Shown piece by piece: positions 49,172 through 55,627 of a stretch of DNA of 64,000 nucleotides. Every line of letters starts with the position of its first letter. Position 1 is the first letter of the stretch. This DNA is from Muribaculaceae bacterium. GTDB lineage: Bacteria; Bacteroidota; Bacteroidia; Bacteroidales; Muribaculaceae. Made by a program: the position numbers and the translations under genes. The notes under the pieces were generated by a model. The model had not been told where the DNA came from. It saw only the letters and a list, made by a program, of their open reading frames with translations, and ran no database searches. The stretch spans positions 62,001 to 126,000 of the forward strand of contig CAJSYI010000002.1 of NCBI GenBank assembly GCA_910573745.1, written 5' to 3'.

Positions 49172-50926
49172 ATGAAACACCTGTCACTCATAATGTCGAT
49201 GCTGGCGGCGTTCGCGCTCGCCTTATCGGGCTGTACCGAATCAGAGACGGCACGCAGCCTCAATCGCGCGGAAGCGGTGATGGAGGAGCATCCAGACTCC
49301 GCCCTCGCCATCCTCGGCGCGATACCGTCTGCCGATGTCAATTCCTCCGCCGACCGCGCCCTCCATGCGCTGTTGCTGACACAGGCGCAAATCAAGAACG
49401 GGCACATCGTGGACAACGACTCGCTCATAAACATCGCCGTCAGACACTACTCCGACCGCGACGACTCCCCCCGCCTCATGAAGTCCCTGTTCTACAAGGC
49501 ACAGGTGGAATACAACCGTGGCGACATGGCCGCCGCAATCGTCCCGGCCATACGCGCGCGGGAACTCGCCACAGAATTCAACGACAGTTACTGGCGCGCA
49601 AAGGCCGCAGAGCTGATGGCTGACATTTACTCCGTCACACACTACAAATCCGAGGCGGTAAAATACACAGAAGAGGCGGCGGAACACTACAAAAAGGCAG
49701 GGAAAGCCAGAAACCACCTGTTTGCCCTTTGCGACCTTGCCGTTGTGCGCAGCAATGACGGCGTAGATGACAACAAGAACATTGCCCTGCTCGACAGCGT
49801 CCGCAGAATCGCCATAAACGAACCGGCCGACACCACGCTCATAGTATACGCAGACAGGACACTGTTTGGAATGTATGTGGATTCAGGACGAAATGACGAG
49901 GCGCACAGAATACTTGAAGAGATGCTTTCTCTCAAAAGCCATTACTTCCCCGACTCCGAACAGTACTCATACATGTCCCGACTGGCCACAAATGACGGCA
50001 ATGATGAAGAAGCCCTTCAGATAATAAAGACAGCAAACGATGAGGCCACGAACACATCCCAGAAAGTGCACGTCTACGTTTTCTACCGCGACTACCATAA
50101 GTCCAAGGGGATGAGCCGGGAGGCCGAAGCATACACAGACAGCATACTGACGCTCCAGAACACCGAGGTCGCAGCCGTACTCAAGCAGTCCGTCGTCTCC
50201 GCACAGCGCGATTTCTTCACCGCCCGTGCCGAAAAAGAGGCCGACAAGGCCCGGTTGTCCGCGATGACCGCATCCGCCCTCGGCATCCTCCTCGCAGCCG
50301 TCTGCATCGGGTTCCTCCTCTACTACCGCGAGAAGATGCGACGCAAAAAGGCCGAAATCGAGACAATGATGCTCGAAGCACAGTCATTGTCAGCACAGCT
50401 TGACGAAAAAGACGAATCTTTACAGTCCGCCATCAATGAACTCAACAAGACACGCAACGACCTGAAAGAACTTTCCATAACCGTCAGCGACAAAGACTCT
50501 CTGCTGAAAACGCAAACCTTGCTTACAAATTCCATTCTCGAAAAGAGATTCCAAACTCTCAATGCACTCAGCAAGGATTATCTCACACTGACCAATCAAT
50601 CATCCCCCAGAACTGGAATAGTCAGTGATTTCAAAAAAGAGCTGGACATTATGGCAAATCCTGAATCTCAGGCAGAACTTGAACGAATAGTGAACAACAA
50701 ACACCAAGGCATTATAACGCGTCTAAGAAACCAGTTGCCGAAAATAAAAGACCAAGACATATTCTTCCTGACTCTCATCGCGGCCGGAGTTTCAAGAAAC
50801 GCAATATGTCTCATCACTAAAAACAAGCAAGCCAACTACTACAACAAATGTTCGCGTCTGAGACGCAAAATAGAGAACTCCGACTCCACAGACAAACAGG
50901 AATTCCTCGACACCATATTCAAATGA
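49172..50926 (+). CDS. TPR-HTH membrane lipoprotein regulator
   Basis: This 584-residue protein has a lipobox-like LALSGC (Cys21), TPR helices (about 30-335), one transmembrane helix (366-384), a long coiled coil (385-475) and a C-terminal helix-turn-helix-like domain (about 510-584). The last has DQDIFFLTLIAAGVSRNAICLITKN and YYNKCSRLRRKIENSDSTDKQEFLDTIF. Bacteroidales regulators with this tail often precede secreted-peptide or surface-protein loci. It lies upstream of a DUF3244 gene and a precursor/maturase pair and is the best candidate for their regulator. GC content falls towards its 3' end. Confidence 0.78.
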   Translation: MKHLSLIMSMLAAFALALSGCTESETARSLNRAEAVMEEHPDSALAILGAIPSADVNSSADRALHALLLTQAQIKNGHIVDNDSLINIAVRHYSDRDDSPRLMKSLFYKAQVEYNRGDMAAAIVPAIRARELATEFNDSYWRAKAAELMADIYSVTHYKSEAVKYTEEAAEHYKKAGKARNHLFALCDLAVVRSNDGVDDNKNIALLDSVRRIAINEPADTTLIVYADRTLFGMYVDSGRNDEAHRILEEMLSLKSHYFPDSEQYSYMSRLATNDGNDEEALQIIKTANDEATNTSQKVHVYVFYRDYHKSKGMSREAEAYTDSILTLQNTEVAAVLKQSVVSAQRDFFTARAEKEADKARLSAMTASALGILLAAVCIGFLLYYREKMRRKKAEIETMMLEAQSLSAQLDEKDESLQSAINELNKTRNDLKELSITVSDKDSLLKTQTLLTNSILEKRFQTLNALSKDYLTLTNQSSPRTGIVSDFKKELDIMANPESQAELERIVNNKHQGIITRLRNQLPKIKDQDIFFLTLIAAGVSRNAICLITKNKQANYYNKCSRLRRKIENSDSTDKQEFLDTIFK

Positions 50927-51013
50927 CCGACAAACCATAAAAAAACATCTGTCAACGCCGCTTCACCGCCTTTCTTAACACCTTGATTGACAGGATTCAA
51001 CACTTCTGATCCA

Positions 51014-51045
51014 AAAGTGATAGATTTTCAGTTTTCTATCACTTT
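51014..51045. promoter_or_regulatory. Perfect inverted repeat downstream of the regulator
   Basis: AAAGTGATAG (51014-51023) and CTATCACTTT (51036-51045) form a 10-bp perfect repeat with a 12-nt spacer. It lies about 90 nt after the regulator stop and about 95 nt before the next -7 box. It may be a terminator or an operator. Nearby repeats of TGATAGATT (51088-51101 region) strengthen an operator reading. Confidence 0.5.
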
Positions 51046-51141
51046 GTAAACATTTGATAATCAACATATCACATAGAACGGATTTTCATTTTGATAGATT
51101 CTTTTTTACCTCTTGAATTCTCTTTATACAAAAAATCCCTC

Positions 51142-51149
51142 TAACTTTG
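51142..51149 (+). promoter_or_regulatory. -7 box of the DUF3244/precursor unit
   Basis: TAACTTTG, 33 nt before the ATG at 51183. No TTTG at 19-20 nt, so activator dependence is plausible. Confidence 0.6.
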
Positions 51150-51182
51150 CATCCGTAGAACTAACCCCAAAAACTATTAAGA

Positions 51183-51575
51183 ATGAAATCTAACATGTTT
51201 ACATCATTCGTTTGTTCCACTCTCCTCGCCATCCCAGTATCGGCAATAGCACAAACCTACGGCAACGGAAATCCATCCATGGATAACGGAAAAAGCATCC
51301 CGATTTACGAACGAAGCAAAAGCAATCCCGGTCGCCCAAAGATACCGTCGCAGCAGCACATCGAATGCGTGTACACGGAAGGGACGTTACACTTCTTCTT
51401 CGCGTTTCCCGAAGGGGAATGCCTCCTGACCGTCACCGACTCATTCTCCGGAATATCCACGCAATACTCTTTCGACTCCGCCGAGCCTGCCGAAATATTC
51501 GTGGGCGAAATACAGACAGGAAGCATCGAAATACAGACCGCCAACGGACACGAATACTTCGGCTCCATCGACTGA
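51183..51575 (+). CDS. DUF3244-type secreted protein
   Basis: This 130-residue protein has a signal peptide (to about ISAIAQT region, residue 24), a basic linker (SIPIYERSKSNPGRPKIP) and a small Ig-like beta domain: CVYTEGTLHFFFAFPEGECLLTVTDSFSGISTQYSFDS and GSIEIQTANGHEYFGSI. DUF3244 proteins are short surface or periplasmic sandwich proteins of unknown role. It is next to a RiPP-like precursor, so an immunity, carrier or adhesion function is conceivable but unproven. Confidence 0.72.
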   Translation: MKSNMFTSFVCSTLLAIPVSAIAQTYGNGNPSMDNGKSIPIYERSKSNPGRPKIPSQQHIECVYTEGTLHFFFAFPEGECLLTVTDSFSGISTQYSFDSAEPAEIFVGEIQTGSIEIQTANGHEYFGSID

Positions 51576-51700
51576 CACCATCAGCCTCAACCCTCAAAAT
51601 AGATACAGGTACAAACAAACGATTAAATAAAAAAGTCCCAAAGCAATGTTTCGAGTCATTTGCAGGTAGGACGTCAATCATAACAAACAATCAAAAGATT

Positions 51701-51925
51701 ATGAAAAATTTCTTTAATGACGAAGAGCTTCAAGCCCTTGAAGCCCTCGAAATCAAGGGCGGTGCAAACGGCAGTGGCACTGCCACCCAGTACGAATGCG
51801 TCAATAGCATCGCTTACTGCGGTGGTGGAGTTCTGCAAAACAAATGTTCCAACACCGCAGAAAAATGCGGATTAATAAAAGACCCGGAACTACCTGTTTT
51901 CCAATGTGTCCAGAATCCATTGTAA
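51701..51925 (+). CDS. RiPP-type precursor peptide, GG-Bacteroidales-like
   Basis: This 74-residue peptide has an acidic helical leader (MKNFFNDEELQALEALEI) ending in KGG at 19-21, a double-glycine cleavage motif. The core is ANGSGTATQY followed by cysteines at 33, 40, 49, 56 and 69, Gly/Ser/Asn-rich. A radical-SAM/SPASM gene follows after 60 nt. The leader resembles that of the TIGRFAM natural-product precursor family for GG-Bacteroidales systems (from memory). The product class (thioether crosslinks, epimers or other) cannot be told. It starts at the ATG at 51701; the open frame upstream has no start context. Confidence 0.78.
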   Translation: MKNFFNDEELQALEALEIKGGANGSGTATQYECVNSIAYCGGGVLQNKCSNTAEKCGLIKDPELPVFQCVQNPL

Positions 51926-51985
51926 ACTAACAATTGCATAGGCGGTAAATATACGTTTGTCGCCTATGCAAAGCCTACAAAAACC

Positions 51986-53287
51986 ATGAAACAGAGTTTC
52001 TACAACTTCATCCTCCACAAAAACGACAAAGCATACTGGTTCAATGCATTGTCATTTAGACATTTCATTCTGCCAAATGATTTATCGTCAAAAATAGAAC
52101 CACTATTGGAAAGCGATTCAACAATCCACGACATTCCTGAATCTTTCAGGAACAAACTATTTGACAATGGTTTTGTCATTGATGACGATTGTAATGAAAT
52201 CGACATAATTAGAAATCGAAACGAAAAAGCAATTCATAGCAAAGACTATATGCTTGTAGTTCTACCTACATTGAATTGCAATTTCAAGTGTTGGTACTGC
52301 ATTCAAAACCATATTCCATCAATGATGGACGATGACATATTTGAACGTATCAAACAGCATATCAAACATATGGTCCACAATGAGGAAATCTCCTCATTAA
52401 GCCTGGAATGGTTCGGAGGCGAACCATTTATGTACTTCAACAAAATCGTGAAACCTATTACTCAATATGCAAAAGACATATGCGAAGAAGCCAAGATTCC
52501 GTTTGAAGCAAGTGCAACTACGAACAGCTACTTCATCACATCTGAAATTTCCAAACAGCTCCAATCATTAAGATTTACCCACTTCCAGATTTCTTTGGAT
52601 GGTAACAAGAAATTCCATGACAAAGTGAAATTTCAGAATGGATGTGAGTCCACATTTGAACGAGCCTTGACAAACATCAATGGCATTCTTGACAACAATC
52701 CGTATGCCAGAGTTTTCTTGCGATTCAACTACAATCACGAGAATCTTACGCCCGATGTCGTAGAAGAAATAAACCCTTTCATTTCAAAAGAAAACAGGAA
52801 ACGGGTGATCGTCGTCACGAGAAAAGTTTGGCAAGCCGATGTGGATAAGTCTTATTCAATTCAATTGCAAGAAATACTCGACGGCTTTAGCAAATCAGGA
52901 TACATAACGACACGCTGGAGTCCTATTTCCAACTATATTCCTTGTTATGCAAACAAAAAATATTACAATGCAATAAACTACAACGGAAATGCTGTCAAGT
53001 GTACAGCTTGTAATGACCTTTACGAAGAAGAACCAAAAGGAGTGCTTCAAAAAGACGGTACAATCTTATGGAATAACGAGTTTGACAAAAGATATCAATG
53101 CAAATCATTTGAAAATGAGGTATGCTTGAACTGCAAAGAACTACCAATCTGCATGGGAAATTGTCCGAGAGATTTTATCAATGGACACTGCCAATGCAAA
53201 AAAGAATCCGTAGACGAAACTATAGAGAATGCACTCATTGATTACATTGAGAATTTTGAGAAAGATATAACCAATAATAGAATATAA
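51986..53287 (+). CDS. Radical SAM/SPASM peptide maturase
   Basis: This 433-residue enzyme has an N-terminal peptide-binding-like region (1-85), the radical-SAM cluster motif CNFKCWYC (Cys98, Cys102, Cys105), GGEP (144-147) and a C-terminal SPASM region with Cys320, 339, 342, 372, 380, 383, 389, 393, 402 and 404, enough for two auxiliary Fe-S clusters. The motif CLNCKELPICMGNCP is typical of SPASM maturases. The gene is markedly AT-rich compared with neighbours. It lies between the cysteine-containing precursor and an outer-membrane barrel, so it most likely modifies that peptide. Confidence 0.9.
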   Translation: MKQSFYNFILHKNDKAYWFNALSFRHFILPNDLSSKIEPLLESDSTIHDIPESFRNKLFDNGFVIDDDCNEIDIIRNRNEKAIHSKDYMLVVLPTLNCNFKCWYCIQNHIPSMMDDDIFERIKQHIKHMVHNEEISSLSLEWFGGEPFMYFNKIVKPITQYAKDICEEAKIPFEASATTNSYFITSEISKQLQSLRFTHFQISLDGNKKFHDKVKFQNGCESTFERALTNINGILDNNPYARVFLRFNYNHENLTPDVVEEINPFISKENRKRVIVVTRKVWQADVDKSYSIQLQEILDGFSKSGYITTRWSPISNYIPCYANKKYYNAINYNGNAVKCTACNDLYEEEPKGVLQKDGTILWNNEFDKRYQCKSFENEVCLNCKELPICMGNCPRDFINGHCQCKKESVDETIENALIDYIENFEKDITNNRI

Positions 53288-53288
53288 T

Positions 53289-55370
53289 ATGAGAAAAGTA
53301 TTTTTATTAATTACATTTATTCTCATACACATTTCGGTTTACGCAACTGAAAGCACTGATTCTGCCGCCACTACGCTCGGCGAGGTTGTAGTGAAGGGAA
53401 AACGCCAATATGCCATCGACGGCGGCGTGGTCTACATCCCCACCCGAAACGAAAAGAAGGCCGCACGCAACGCCCAGGACCTCCTGAGGCACATCGGCAT
53501 CACCCAGATCGACGTGGACCCGCAGTCGTTCAGCGTCAAGACGCTCGCCGGAAAAGACGTGCAGATTTTCGTCAACGGCGTGAAGTCCGACCCGGAGTCG
53601 GTGTGGACAATGGAGGTGAAGAGGGTGGAGTACCTCGTGGCCCCCCCGGACCCGAAGTTCCTCGGGGCGCAGTATGTGATCAACTACATAGTGGAGAAGT
53701 ACCGGTACGGGGGCTACACCCGCCTGTCGCTCCAGGAGGCCTTCCTCGCCGGGCTTGACAGCCGGGCGGGGATCTTCTCACGGTTCGCGTACAGGAGCAT
53801 GACGTTCGACCTGTACGCCAGCGCGGCCAACAGCGCGGCGGCGAAGCACCGGGGATCCTCCACGGAGGAGACATACTCGCTGACGGGCGACGGAGGGGCG
53901 CCTTTCTTGGCCGAACGCCGCGAAAGCCTGTCGGGCAGGAAAGGCCGTGCCGACCGCTATCCGCTGACGTTCAGCGCGATGTACAGCGGTGCCAGATGCT
54001 CTGCCCGCAACAGCGTCTCGTTCAATTTCGCGGAGAGGAAGGACCACCGCGAGGACGGCACGGTTTCGCTCTGGCCGCTGCTGCCGGAGAGCGGGGAATC
54101 ATCGCGCCTCTCCGACTCCCGCGGCCGCAGCGTCAGCTGGTACGGCGACGCGTTCCTGTGGACGGACAACGGTTGGCACTTCGGCTACAACGGCAGCTTC
54201 GCCTACGACCGCAACGACGGGAGCACGCTTTACTCCAGCCCTTATGCCGGCGGCATACTGACCATCTCGAAGGAGGACGTGTTCGACTACAGGCTCCACC
54301 TCATGGCCAACAAGAGCCTCGGGGCGCACAGGATAGGCCTGCATCTCAGCGGGAGCAACACCAACAACCGCGTGGTGTATTCCGGCACGAGCCCGGCTAA
54401 GAACAGCTTCTCGTCGCCGGCTCTGTCGGCACGGTTCTCGTACGGACTGAACATCAGCCGCTTCAACCTCTCTTTCGACGTGGCCCCCGGCTGGGAGCGC
54501 AGCAAGGTCAACAACACCGTCAACTCCTTCTTCACGCTCGTCTCGCACCTGCAGGCCAGCTTCACGCCTGATTCCAGGAACCAGTTCTCGCTGTGGGCGC
54601 AGGCGGCGAAGAGCGGCAACTCCCCGGCCGACAACTCGGAGGCGGTGATCCGGCTCAACGACCTGATGTACGTCTCGGGAAACCCGCACCTGAAGGCGCC
54701 GCTGCATTTCGACATGAACCTCAGCTACAGCTGGATCCCCTCGGACATGTTCACGATGACCGCCTACGGCTCGCTGGCCACTGTCGGCGACCGCATCACG
54801 GCGGATTTCCGACGCCATGACGACGGGGCCGCGCTGCTCCGGACGCTGGTCAATTCCGGCAGGTTCACCTCCGCAGAGATAGGCGTCTCGCTGCGTCTGA
54901 CGCTGTTCGGGCGCAGGCTGAGGCTTTCCGCCACGCCGGTGCAGAAGTTCTACAAGTCCACGGGGCTGAACGCCATGACGTATTCCCCCTTTGCCGTAAA
55001 GGCCAACGCATACTGGTACCAGGGGCCTTTCTGGGCGGGGCTCCACTACCAGAACGGGGACAGGTCCATAGACCCCCGGAGCGGATTCAGGACGAAGGGA
55101 CGAGACTACTACCAGATTTCGGCAGGCTGGGGCAACGGCAACTGGAACGTCTACGCCGGGGCGTCCAACATCTTCAGCAGGGGCTGGAAGGAGTCCGTCT
55201 CCGAGCTTTCCGGCGAGCTATACACCTGCCGCCGGACCACATACGGCGTCAGCCGGCATGCGTCAGTCTTTGTCGGTGCGACATACACGTTCGGATACGG
55301 GAAAAAGATAGACCGGCACAACGAGGCGAAGGAGAACGCCGGAGGGCAGTCCGCCGTCTACGGCCTATAG
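53289..55370 (+). CDS. TonB-receptor-like outer-membrane protein of the RiPP-like locus
   Basis: This 693-residue protein has a signal peptide (MRKVFLLITFILIHISVYA) and a plug-like domain (about 28-140) starting TTLGEVVVKGKRQYAIDGGVVYIP and containing VQIFVNGVKSDPESVWTMEVKRVEYLVAPPDPKFLGAQYVINYI condensed motifs. Then come about 22 beta-strand segments to a C-terminal TYTFGYGKKI. The last 17 residues extend beyond the barrel. The first 60 nt are AT-rich like the maturase gene, then GC content jumps, so the gene is mosaic. It starts 1 nt after the maturase stop. A role in peptide export or uptake is inferred from position only. Confidence 0.8.
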   Translation: MRKVFLLITFILIHISVYATESTDSAATTLGEVVVKGKRQYAIDGGVVYIPTRNEKKAARNAQDLLRHIGITQIDVDPQSFSVKTLAGKDVQIFVNGVKSDPESVWTMEVKRVEYLVAPPDPKFLGAQYVINYIVEKYRYGGYTRLSLQEAFLAGLDSRAGIFSRFAYRSMTFDLYASAANSAAAKHRGSSTEETYSLTGDGGAPFLAERRESLSGRKGRADRYPLTFSAMYSGARCSARNSVSFNFAERKDHREDGTVSLWPLLPESGESSRLSDSRGRSVSWYGDAFLWTDNGWHFGYNGSFAYDRNDGSTLYSSPYAGGILTISKEDVFDYRLHLMANKSLGAHRIGLHLSGSNTNNRVVYSGTSPAKNSFSSPALSARFSYGLNISRFNLSFDVAPGWERSKVNNTVNSFFTLVSHLQASFTPDSRNQFSLWAQAAKSGNSPADNSEAVIRLNDLMYVSGNPHLKAPLHFDMNLSYSWIPSDMFTMTAYGSLATVGDRITADFRRHDDGAALLRTLVNSGRFTSAEIGVSLRLTLFGRRLRLSATPVQKFYKSTGLNAMTYSPFAVKANAYWYQGPFWAGLHYQNGDRSIDPRSGFRTKGRDYYQISAGWGNGNWNVYAGASNIFSRGWKESVSELSGELYTCRRTTYGVSRHASVFVGATYTFGYGKKIDRHNEAKENAGGQSAVYGL

Positions 55371-55375
55371 GGCCG

Positions 55376-55627
55376 GGGCGCGACCCGACAAAACTGAATC
55401 CAGACACCGGAGAGATACACTGGTATGAAGAAAAGATACGTTATCTTGACAACGACACTACTCCTAAGCGATGCCGAAAGTGCAAGATGCTGCCGGACTG
55501 CACCGGCCCGTGCCGCAGGCACGTGGCTGAGGGAGAAGGCGACGAATGTTTTCTTGACGACCTTAAGATGAGCATCGAAGACTATGCCCTGATGCAATTC
55601 AGAATAGAACTCGTAAAATGTGCATAA
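55376..55627 (+). pseudogene. C-terminal SPASM remnant of a second radical-SAM maturase
   Basis: About 80 codons in one open frame without a start encode LNPDTGEIHWYEEKIRYL, then CRKCKMLPDCTGPCRRHV and DECFLDDLKMSIEDYALMQF, ending at a TAA at 55625-55627. The block CRKCKMLPDCTGPC aligns with CLNCKELPICMGNC of the intact maturase. The radical-SAM core is missing. The remnant begins directly after the barrel gene, so the barrel's 3' end appears to have replaced most of a maturase gene, or a deletion joined them. Confidence 0.8.

Follow-up and report, generated by a model that had tools for sequence, protein, structure and literature searches.

The locus described here raises the question of how a modified peptide could leave the cell when its gene cluster carries no exporter. 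It lies on the forward strand of the window (the 64,000-nucleotide stretch of DNA that was analysed, whose host, judging from the kin of the genome, is probably a member of Bacteroidales) and comprises five genes in one direction, all open and full length among the open reading frames (ORFs) of the window. A TPR/transmembrane (TM) regulator is followed by a secreted 130-aa protein, a 74-aa Gly-Gly precursor, a radical-SAM/SPASM enzyme (the maturase), and a TonB-transporter-like barrel. The locus belongs to a widespread Bacteroidota family of RiPP cassettes, of which it is a genuine and intact example without an exporter of its own, and its product is most likely a small, chemically cross-linked, Cys-rich peptide that is passed through the outer membrane.

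The RiPP assignment, which had been predicted from the sequence, is supported by the precursors and barrels that repeatedly adjoin relatives of the maturase. Of 61 genomes, 34 contain such relatives at E <= 0.001 (23 of these, all of the same genus, at E < 1e-20) and, because precursors and barrels stand next to them, the locus is not a chance arrangement. A contig scan returned at least 438 related maturase stretches, which represent at least 79 distinct loci, mostly on contigs titled Bacteroidota. From the scan loci and further fetched stretches, 115 maturase ORFs scoring more than 250 bits to a profile of 30 sequences were collected; the duplicate loci L079, L080, L081, and L085 were left out of the precursor, barrel/exporter, membrane-fusion protein, and regulator counts and of the maturase tree. 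Three Bacteroidota-type cassettes (L113, L083, and L099) occur on contigs titled as Methanobrevibacter, Eubacteriaceae, and Roseburia MAGs, and our guess is that these contigs are probably mis-binned.

The maturase (51986..53287, + strand, 433 aa) matches the Pfam Radical_SAM model PF04055 with 42.2 bits (cut-off 29.5), and its cluster cysteines C98, C102, and C105 (CX3CX2C) are invariant in the 30-sequence alignment. SPASM domains are characterized by a seven-Cys pattern, CX9-15GX4C - CX2CX5CX3C - C. The maturase fits this pattern, with C320, G334, C339, C380, C383, and C404 invariant in the 30 sequences and C389 and C393 kept in at least 90% of them. The SPASM assignment rests on this Cys pattern, since the Pfam SPASM model PF13186 gave no match to the maturase at E <= 1 and the genome scan with it also missed this gene. 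Together with CX3CX2C, the pattern supports the proposed identity of the enzyme as a SPASM maturase. When the profile of the 30 maturases was compared with the PDB, 5wgg was the top match (E 1.4e-39); this structure is CteB, for which a thioether product is described in the text of PMC10352776. Since CteB is the best profile match, cysteine thioether chemistry is likely. In ranthipeptides, the thioether joins Cys to a non-alpha carbon. The cross-link here is probably of the ranthipeptide kind, with class and sites predicted from the kinship of the maturase and the conservation of the cysteines.

With regard to curated families, the window maturase matches TIGR04463, TIGR04334 (Clo7bot), and NF038107 (CefB) over nearly its full length but far below their cut-offs: TIGR04463 gave the best NCBIfam maturase score (136.6 bits, cut-off 525), and the other two gave 118.8 and 111.8 bits, respectively (cut-offs 600 each). 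The PapB family was matched at E 1e-19 (70.9 bits, cut-off 340). No peptide-maturase model reached its curated cut-off for the window maturase (best 25 of 43 NCBIfam models) or for four related maturases (best 25 models each), and a general SPASM-domain model did so in two of these five. The enzyme shares the seven-Cys SPASM pattern with maturases of the CteB/PapB type, a likeness drawn from sequence, whereas its precursor differs from theirs. The G+C content of the maturase gene is 0.36, versus 0.62 in the adjoining barrel gene. This hinted at a transfer, but a lower maturase G+C is a trend in many relatives. In many of them, the gap between maturase and barrel has the same direction as in the window and is smaller.

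The precursor gene (51701..51925, + strand) encodes 74 residues. Its start was chosen via alignment with relatives (the longest-ORF rule would give 186 aa). An acidic leader of 21 residues ends in ALEIKGG, with Gly-Gly at residues 20-21, and five cysteines follow at positions 33, 40, 49, 56, and 69. Leaders cleaved by C39-peptidase ABC exporters (PCATs) carry a GG motif with hydrophobic residues at -4 and -12, Glu at -8, and Gly-Gly at -2/-1. The leader of the window precursor, read from the sequence as LQALEALEIKGG, fits this motif. The core of 53 aa consists of two C-x-N-x4-C-G units and a C-terminal Cys, and cores of such units with a last Cys near the C-terminus also occur in L035, L036, and L084. 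The window precursor matched no NCBIfam model at E <= 1; of 10 precursors compared with NCBIfam, none had a curated match and one, not that of the window, reached CefA at E 0.0035, and five further precursors likewise gave no curated match.

A strict rule was applied to the surroundings of the maturases, which required Gly-Gly or Gly-Ala with hydrophobic residues before it at -4 and -7 and at least three cysteines after it, within 700 bases. A precursor ORF of this kind adjoins 46 of the 115 related maturases on the same strand. The opposite strand gave 0 of 115, and among 324 displaced windows 8 contained such an ORF; in L042, two maturases share a single candidate ORF in this analysis. The rule failed for the other 69 maturases, where some leaders deviate (for example, in L035) and others have no visible candidate, and 46 of 115 is thus a lower bound, since clear precursors such as that of L035 are missed. 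This adjacency rules out a chance ORF. The original prediction had proposed precursor conservation beside maturase homologues as a check, and this check did not refute it. The description of the precursor given there (74 aa, acidic leader, Gly-Gly, five Cys, directly before the maturase) holds.

The barrel (53289..55370, + strand, 693 aa) starts 1 nt after the maturase stop (53287 to 53289). It consists of a plug and a large beta-barrel of the TonB-dependent transporter (TBDT) fold, as judged from structure matches of a model with pLDDT 84.7, and carries the TonB-box-like motif LGEVVVKG. Motifs of this form (LxEVVVxG) were found in 13 of 19 barrels, including that of the window, versus 1 of 270 control windows. 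The earlier description of this protein as TonB-like is thereby upheld. Comparison with OMP_b-brl_3 (PF14905) gave 24.3 bits, below the gathering cut-off of 27; among seven barrels beside related maturases, six score 39-293 and that of L065 has no match. A sequence profile of the barrel found nothing in the PDB at E <= 0.1. Its Pfam scan returned no peptidase domain and, given the TBDT fold as well, leader removal by the barrel, one of two routes that had been suggested for this step, is not supported and was rejected. The structure matches (best 50 in each of two listings) are receptors or importers by title and include the copper transporter OprC and Bacteroides BtuB, so that outward transport goes against the common use of this fold.

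The region behind the barrel had been counted as part of the locus up to position 55627. However, 55371-55627 lies outside the barrel gene. In one frame at 55403..55627 (+ strand), it holds the non-working remains of a second radical-SAM gene, namely a piece of its C-terminal SPASM end. At least 20 maturase ORFs resemble it at their C-termini, with a best E of 5e-5 and at least eight at E <= 0.006, in both cases among the matches listed and under lenient statistics.

In the window cassette, no PCAT is present, as had been stated from the sequence, and elsewhere a PCAT is a usual member of the cassette. Barrels were sought within 2.5 kb of the maturase, with a profile as well as with phmmer searches that used seven cassette barrels as queries, and PCATs within 5.5 kb. 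Among the 115 maturases, a barrel stands beside 87, a PCAT beside 84, both beside 65, and neither beside 9; on the opposite strand, the corresponding numbers are 0 for barrels and 2 for PCATs. For the 60 maturases that have 5.5 kb or more of sequence on each side, a barrel is present in 53, a PCAT in 48, both in 42, and neither in 1, and the window is one of 11 with a barrel and without a PCAT. The stretches L060:9250-12164 and L064:1861-4775, between maturase and PCAT, are occupied by a pair of genes (481 and 490 codons) that are related, and L143 holds a further relative of them.

The absence of an exporter is local, because sister cassettes elsewhere in the genome encode two PCATs. Three C39 matches were found in this genome, namely these two exporters and a weak third one whose frame, at 347 codons, is shorter than a PCAT requires. 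On contig C43, the sister cassette comprises a precursor, a maturase, two barrels, a PCAT with all three PCAT domains, and a 66-aa piece of a membrane-fusion protein (MFP); on contig C77, it comprises two precursors, a barrel, and a PCAT cut at the contig end. The other suggested route, leader removal by genes elsewhere, is thus supported in outline by two C39-peptidase exporters. Further cassettes of this genome are located on contigs C30 and C26. In the C30 cassette, an OPT-family gene (L081:4339-6336) lies between the barrel and the TPR regulator, where none was seen in the other loci compared. Among the genomes of the same genus, a PCAT (E < 1e-20) was found in 22 of the 23 that carry the maturase (E < 1e-20), compared with 3 of the 14 that do not (Fisher p 4.6e-6, a value which overstates independence because these are draft genomes of related species).

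Exporter-less layouts also occur close to the window in the maturase tree, in which the window belongs to a clade of six (support 0.87). A PCAT stands beside three members and none beside the other three, one of which (L087) has only 0.2 kb of upstream sequence. L035 (genome G022), another member of this clade, shows the same exporter-less layout, with two PCATs elsewhere in G022; behind its barrel, L035:11477-11979 contains a PCAT remnant and a mini-MFP tail, which suggests that this relative of the window cassette has lost its exporter. Measured by branch length, the PCATs of L086, L052, L140, and L083 are the nearest to the C43 PCAT, and two of these four come from the window's maturase clade. 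In the midpoint-rooted PCAT tree (L079 alone dropped as a duplicate), it groups with 12 others (13 tips, support 0.89) to the exclusion of L086 and L083, and it therefore has no supported pairing with that clade.

The sequences behind the PCATs bear on the outer-membrane step. Behind 83 PCATs, 31 ORFs resembling the start of HlyD were found, of which 14 have 49-81 aa, 13 have 91-260 aa, and 4 are longer; as the profile was built from this same cluster of sequences, the numbers are descriptive of that cluster and do not amount to independent evidence. In 14 of the 83 cases, the PCAT is thus followed by an MFP reduced to the N-terminal tail and first TM helix of the HlyD type (L038, L040, L042, L052, L060, L063, L064, L065, L093, L095, L140, L145, L150, and L154). 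Five full-length HlyD proteins matched 11 of these 14 short ORFs within their first 63 residues, with one match extending to residue 88, and up to 1.5 kb behind the 14 no further HlyD match was detected. In Pfam, the one full MFP that was scanned is HlyD_3, and the 163-aa and 67-aa ones match no model. A piece of this size could hardly span the periplasm. The C43 PCAT has the 66-aa piece behind it and no full MFP or TolC adjoining, and the HlyD_3 and OEP matches of this genome lie on contigs C8, C9, and C65, not on C43 or C77; MFP/TolC partners of its PCATs may act from afar. In its discussion of clusters that have a PCAT and an OMP and lack an MFP, PMC10352776 raised the question of whether these rely on a different mechanism or contain an undetected MFP, and the reduced MFP pieces are a possible link to both alternatives.

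Based on these findings, a mechanism can be proposed. The membrane regulator would switch on the four genes behind it as a unit (small secreted protein, precursor, maturase, and barrel). The radical-SAM/SPASM enzyme would recognise the leader and install thioether links from the core cysteines on the C-x-N-x4-C-G units. The C39-peptidase ABC exporter of a sister cassette (contig C43 or C77) would cut after Gly-Gly and move the core into the periplasm; these exporters exist, and their use in trans is what we infer. Finally, the peptide would cross the outer membrane through the TonB-transporter-like barrel, with outward transport as the most likely direction. Candidate roles of the peptide are antagonism, signalling, and metal handling. 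This whole explanation, an intact RiPP cassette that borrows the exporter of a sister cassette and has its peptide exported by the barrel, is considered reasonably probable. A more general version is offered tentatively, namely, that Bacteroidota have a route of their own in which a PCAT, an MFP shrunk to its first TM helix, and a TonB-energised TBDT barrel push the modified peptide out, with orphan cassettes borrowing the exporter. TBDT-dependent secretion has a precedent in Oar/PopC, as the abstract of PMC6434023 indicates.

The direction of transport is where the main alternative departs. The same RiPP might leave by another outer-membrane route, and the barrel might be a receptor that re-imports the exported peptide or a peptide-metal complex via TonB, as siderophore receptors do; we regard this as quite possible, if short of probable. 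The listed structural matches, OprC and Bacteroides BtuB among them, are uptake receptors, the TonB-box-like motif suits such a role, the Cys-rich core could bind metal, and one sister cassette has an OPT-family transporter between barrel and TPR regulator. Yet the OPT gene was found at one place only among the loci compared, the neighbourhood tables contain no conserved inner-membrane import gene, the linkage of barrel to maturase is as tight as that of PCAT to maturase, and, if the barrel served uptake, those cassettes in which the MFP is reduced would be left with no way out through the outer membrane.

Two other readings question the peptide or the locus itself. The locus could be a decaying orphan in which the exporter was lost, a second maturase survives as a remnant, and peptide export has ended. 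The missing PCAT, the SPASM remnant at 55403-55627, and the PCAT decay in the relative L035 fit this picture, but none of the five genes is interrupted or shortened, the cluster cysteines are conserved, the precursor retains its cysteines and leader, and PCATs are present elsewhere in the genome, which makes decay unlikely. It is very improbable that the 74-aa ORF encodes a secreted disulfide-rich peptide while the radical-SAM enzyme acts on another substrate: the cysteines could pair as disulfides, the evidence for cross-links being drawn from sequence, but Cys-rich GG ORFs repeatedly adjoin this maturase family.

Clusters of a similar kind have been described. Fernandez-Cantos et al. (2023, PMC10352776) reported Bacteroidales RiPP clusters that combine a radical-SAM enzyme, GG precursor, PCAT, and OMP, with no MFP recognised. 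In PMC8939145, pfam14905 and TonB-related proteins are tied to Bacteroidetes RiPP loci, and export is proposed for the TonB-related ones. The claim that this combination is little described is thus weakened, because both the general layout and the barrel/TonB link are in print, at least in outline. These two papers were the only close ones among the matches listed in a literature search on radical SAM, RiPP, TonB, and Bacteroidales, and a search with the maturase family names found no relevant literature. As described in PMC10352776, BGC1, BGC2, and BGC6-8 have a radical-SAM enzyme like the window, along with a C39 PCAT and mostly GG-motif precursors. BGC6-8 have an OMP and no recognised MFP, the window cassette likewise having an outer-membrane barrel, and BGC2 and the LanM cluster BGC9 carry a TPR gene, as the window does in its regulator. 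In contrast to the window, YcaO is an additional component of BGC6-8, and BGC2 includes an MFP. Going by these descriptions, the window is set apart by the lack of a PCAT in the locus, the DUF3244-like protein, and the C-x-N-x4-C-G core.

Other systems share single elements with the window. Colicin V-type export, which in the account given in PMC10352776 uses a PCAT, an MFP, and TolC, has the GG leader and C39-peptidase ABC exporters in common with the window's genome, but no full MFP or TolC adjoins the C43 PCAT and a TBDT-like barrel is present in the window cassette. In Oar-dependent secretion of PopC in Myxococcus, a TonB-dependent-transporter protein is used outward, as proposed for the window barrel; the cargo is, on the other hand, a protease, and the abstract of PMC6434023 mentions no RiPP cassette. 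The kind of cassette is accordingly known, and this variant is outside the maturase models shown (best 25 models), with the export route as the interesting part. New are the shortfall against the curated maturase models shown, the PCATs whose MFP is cut to the first TM helix, and a barrel export that can be tested. Bacteroidales RiPPs have hardly been characterised although candidate clusters are common, as stated in PMC10352776, and the present cassettes offer a concrete candidate answer to the question raised there of how the peptide exits when no MFP is found. With reduced MFPs and a linked TBDT-like barrel in combination, it can be tested directly whether a small peptide is transported outward in a TonB-dependent manner.

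With regard to the two upstream genes, the regulator that had been predicted is indeed a gene of the TPR/TM type (49172..50926, + strand, 584 aa), with a lipobox-like LSGC, a TPR region, one TM helix (~365-383), a coiled coil, and a helix-turn-helix-like C-terminal end; this last feature and the sidedness of the protein are predictions. Residues 10-567 match the BT3442-family profile at E 7e-15 (54.7 bits, cut-off 940), and TPR_19 gave 23.7 bits (cut-off 25). In the regulator family, a hydrophobic TM window is found in 19 of 19 long members and a lipobox pattern in 15 of 19. The motif TAnnTTTG occurs 36 nt 5' of the regulator and 41 nt 5' of the gene for the 130-aa protein; its 16 copies on the + strand are about what chance would give for six fixed bases in 64 kb (hand calculation).

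The small secreted beta-sandwich protein (51183..51575, + strand, 130 aa) had been named DUF3244. As a sequence-level assignment, this is ruled out by the lack of any Pfam match, PF11589 (DUF3244) included, at E <= 1; the name stands at most at the level of fold, where DUF3244 heads the match list without significance by Foldseek. Its relative in L061 gave no match to PF11589 at E <= 0.1, and its sequence profile found nothing in the PDB at E <= 1. A similar protein is found behind 18 of 28 regulator ORFs (two loci counted as two rows each), as detected with a profile that drew on 12 proteins of this type; among the loci recovered, eight had not contributed to the profile. B. thetaiotaomicron has a DUF3244 protein of solved structure, BT_1867, and its BT1868 is a TPR protein according to its mention in PMC10434189, which suggests that the pairing of TPR and DUF3244 proteins is older than this cassette.
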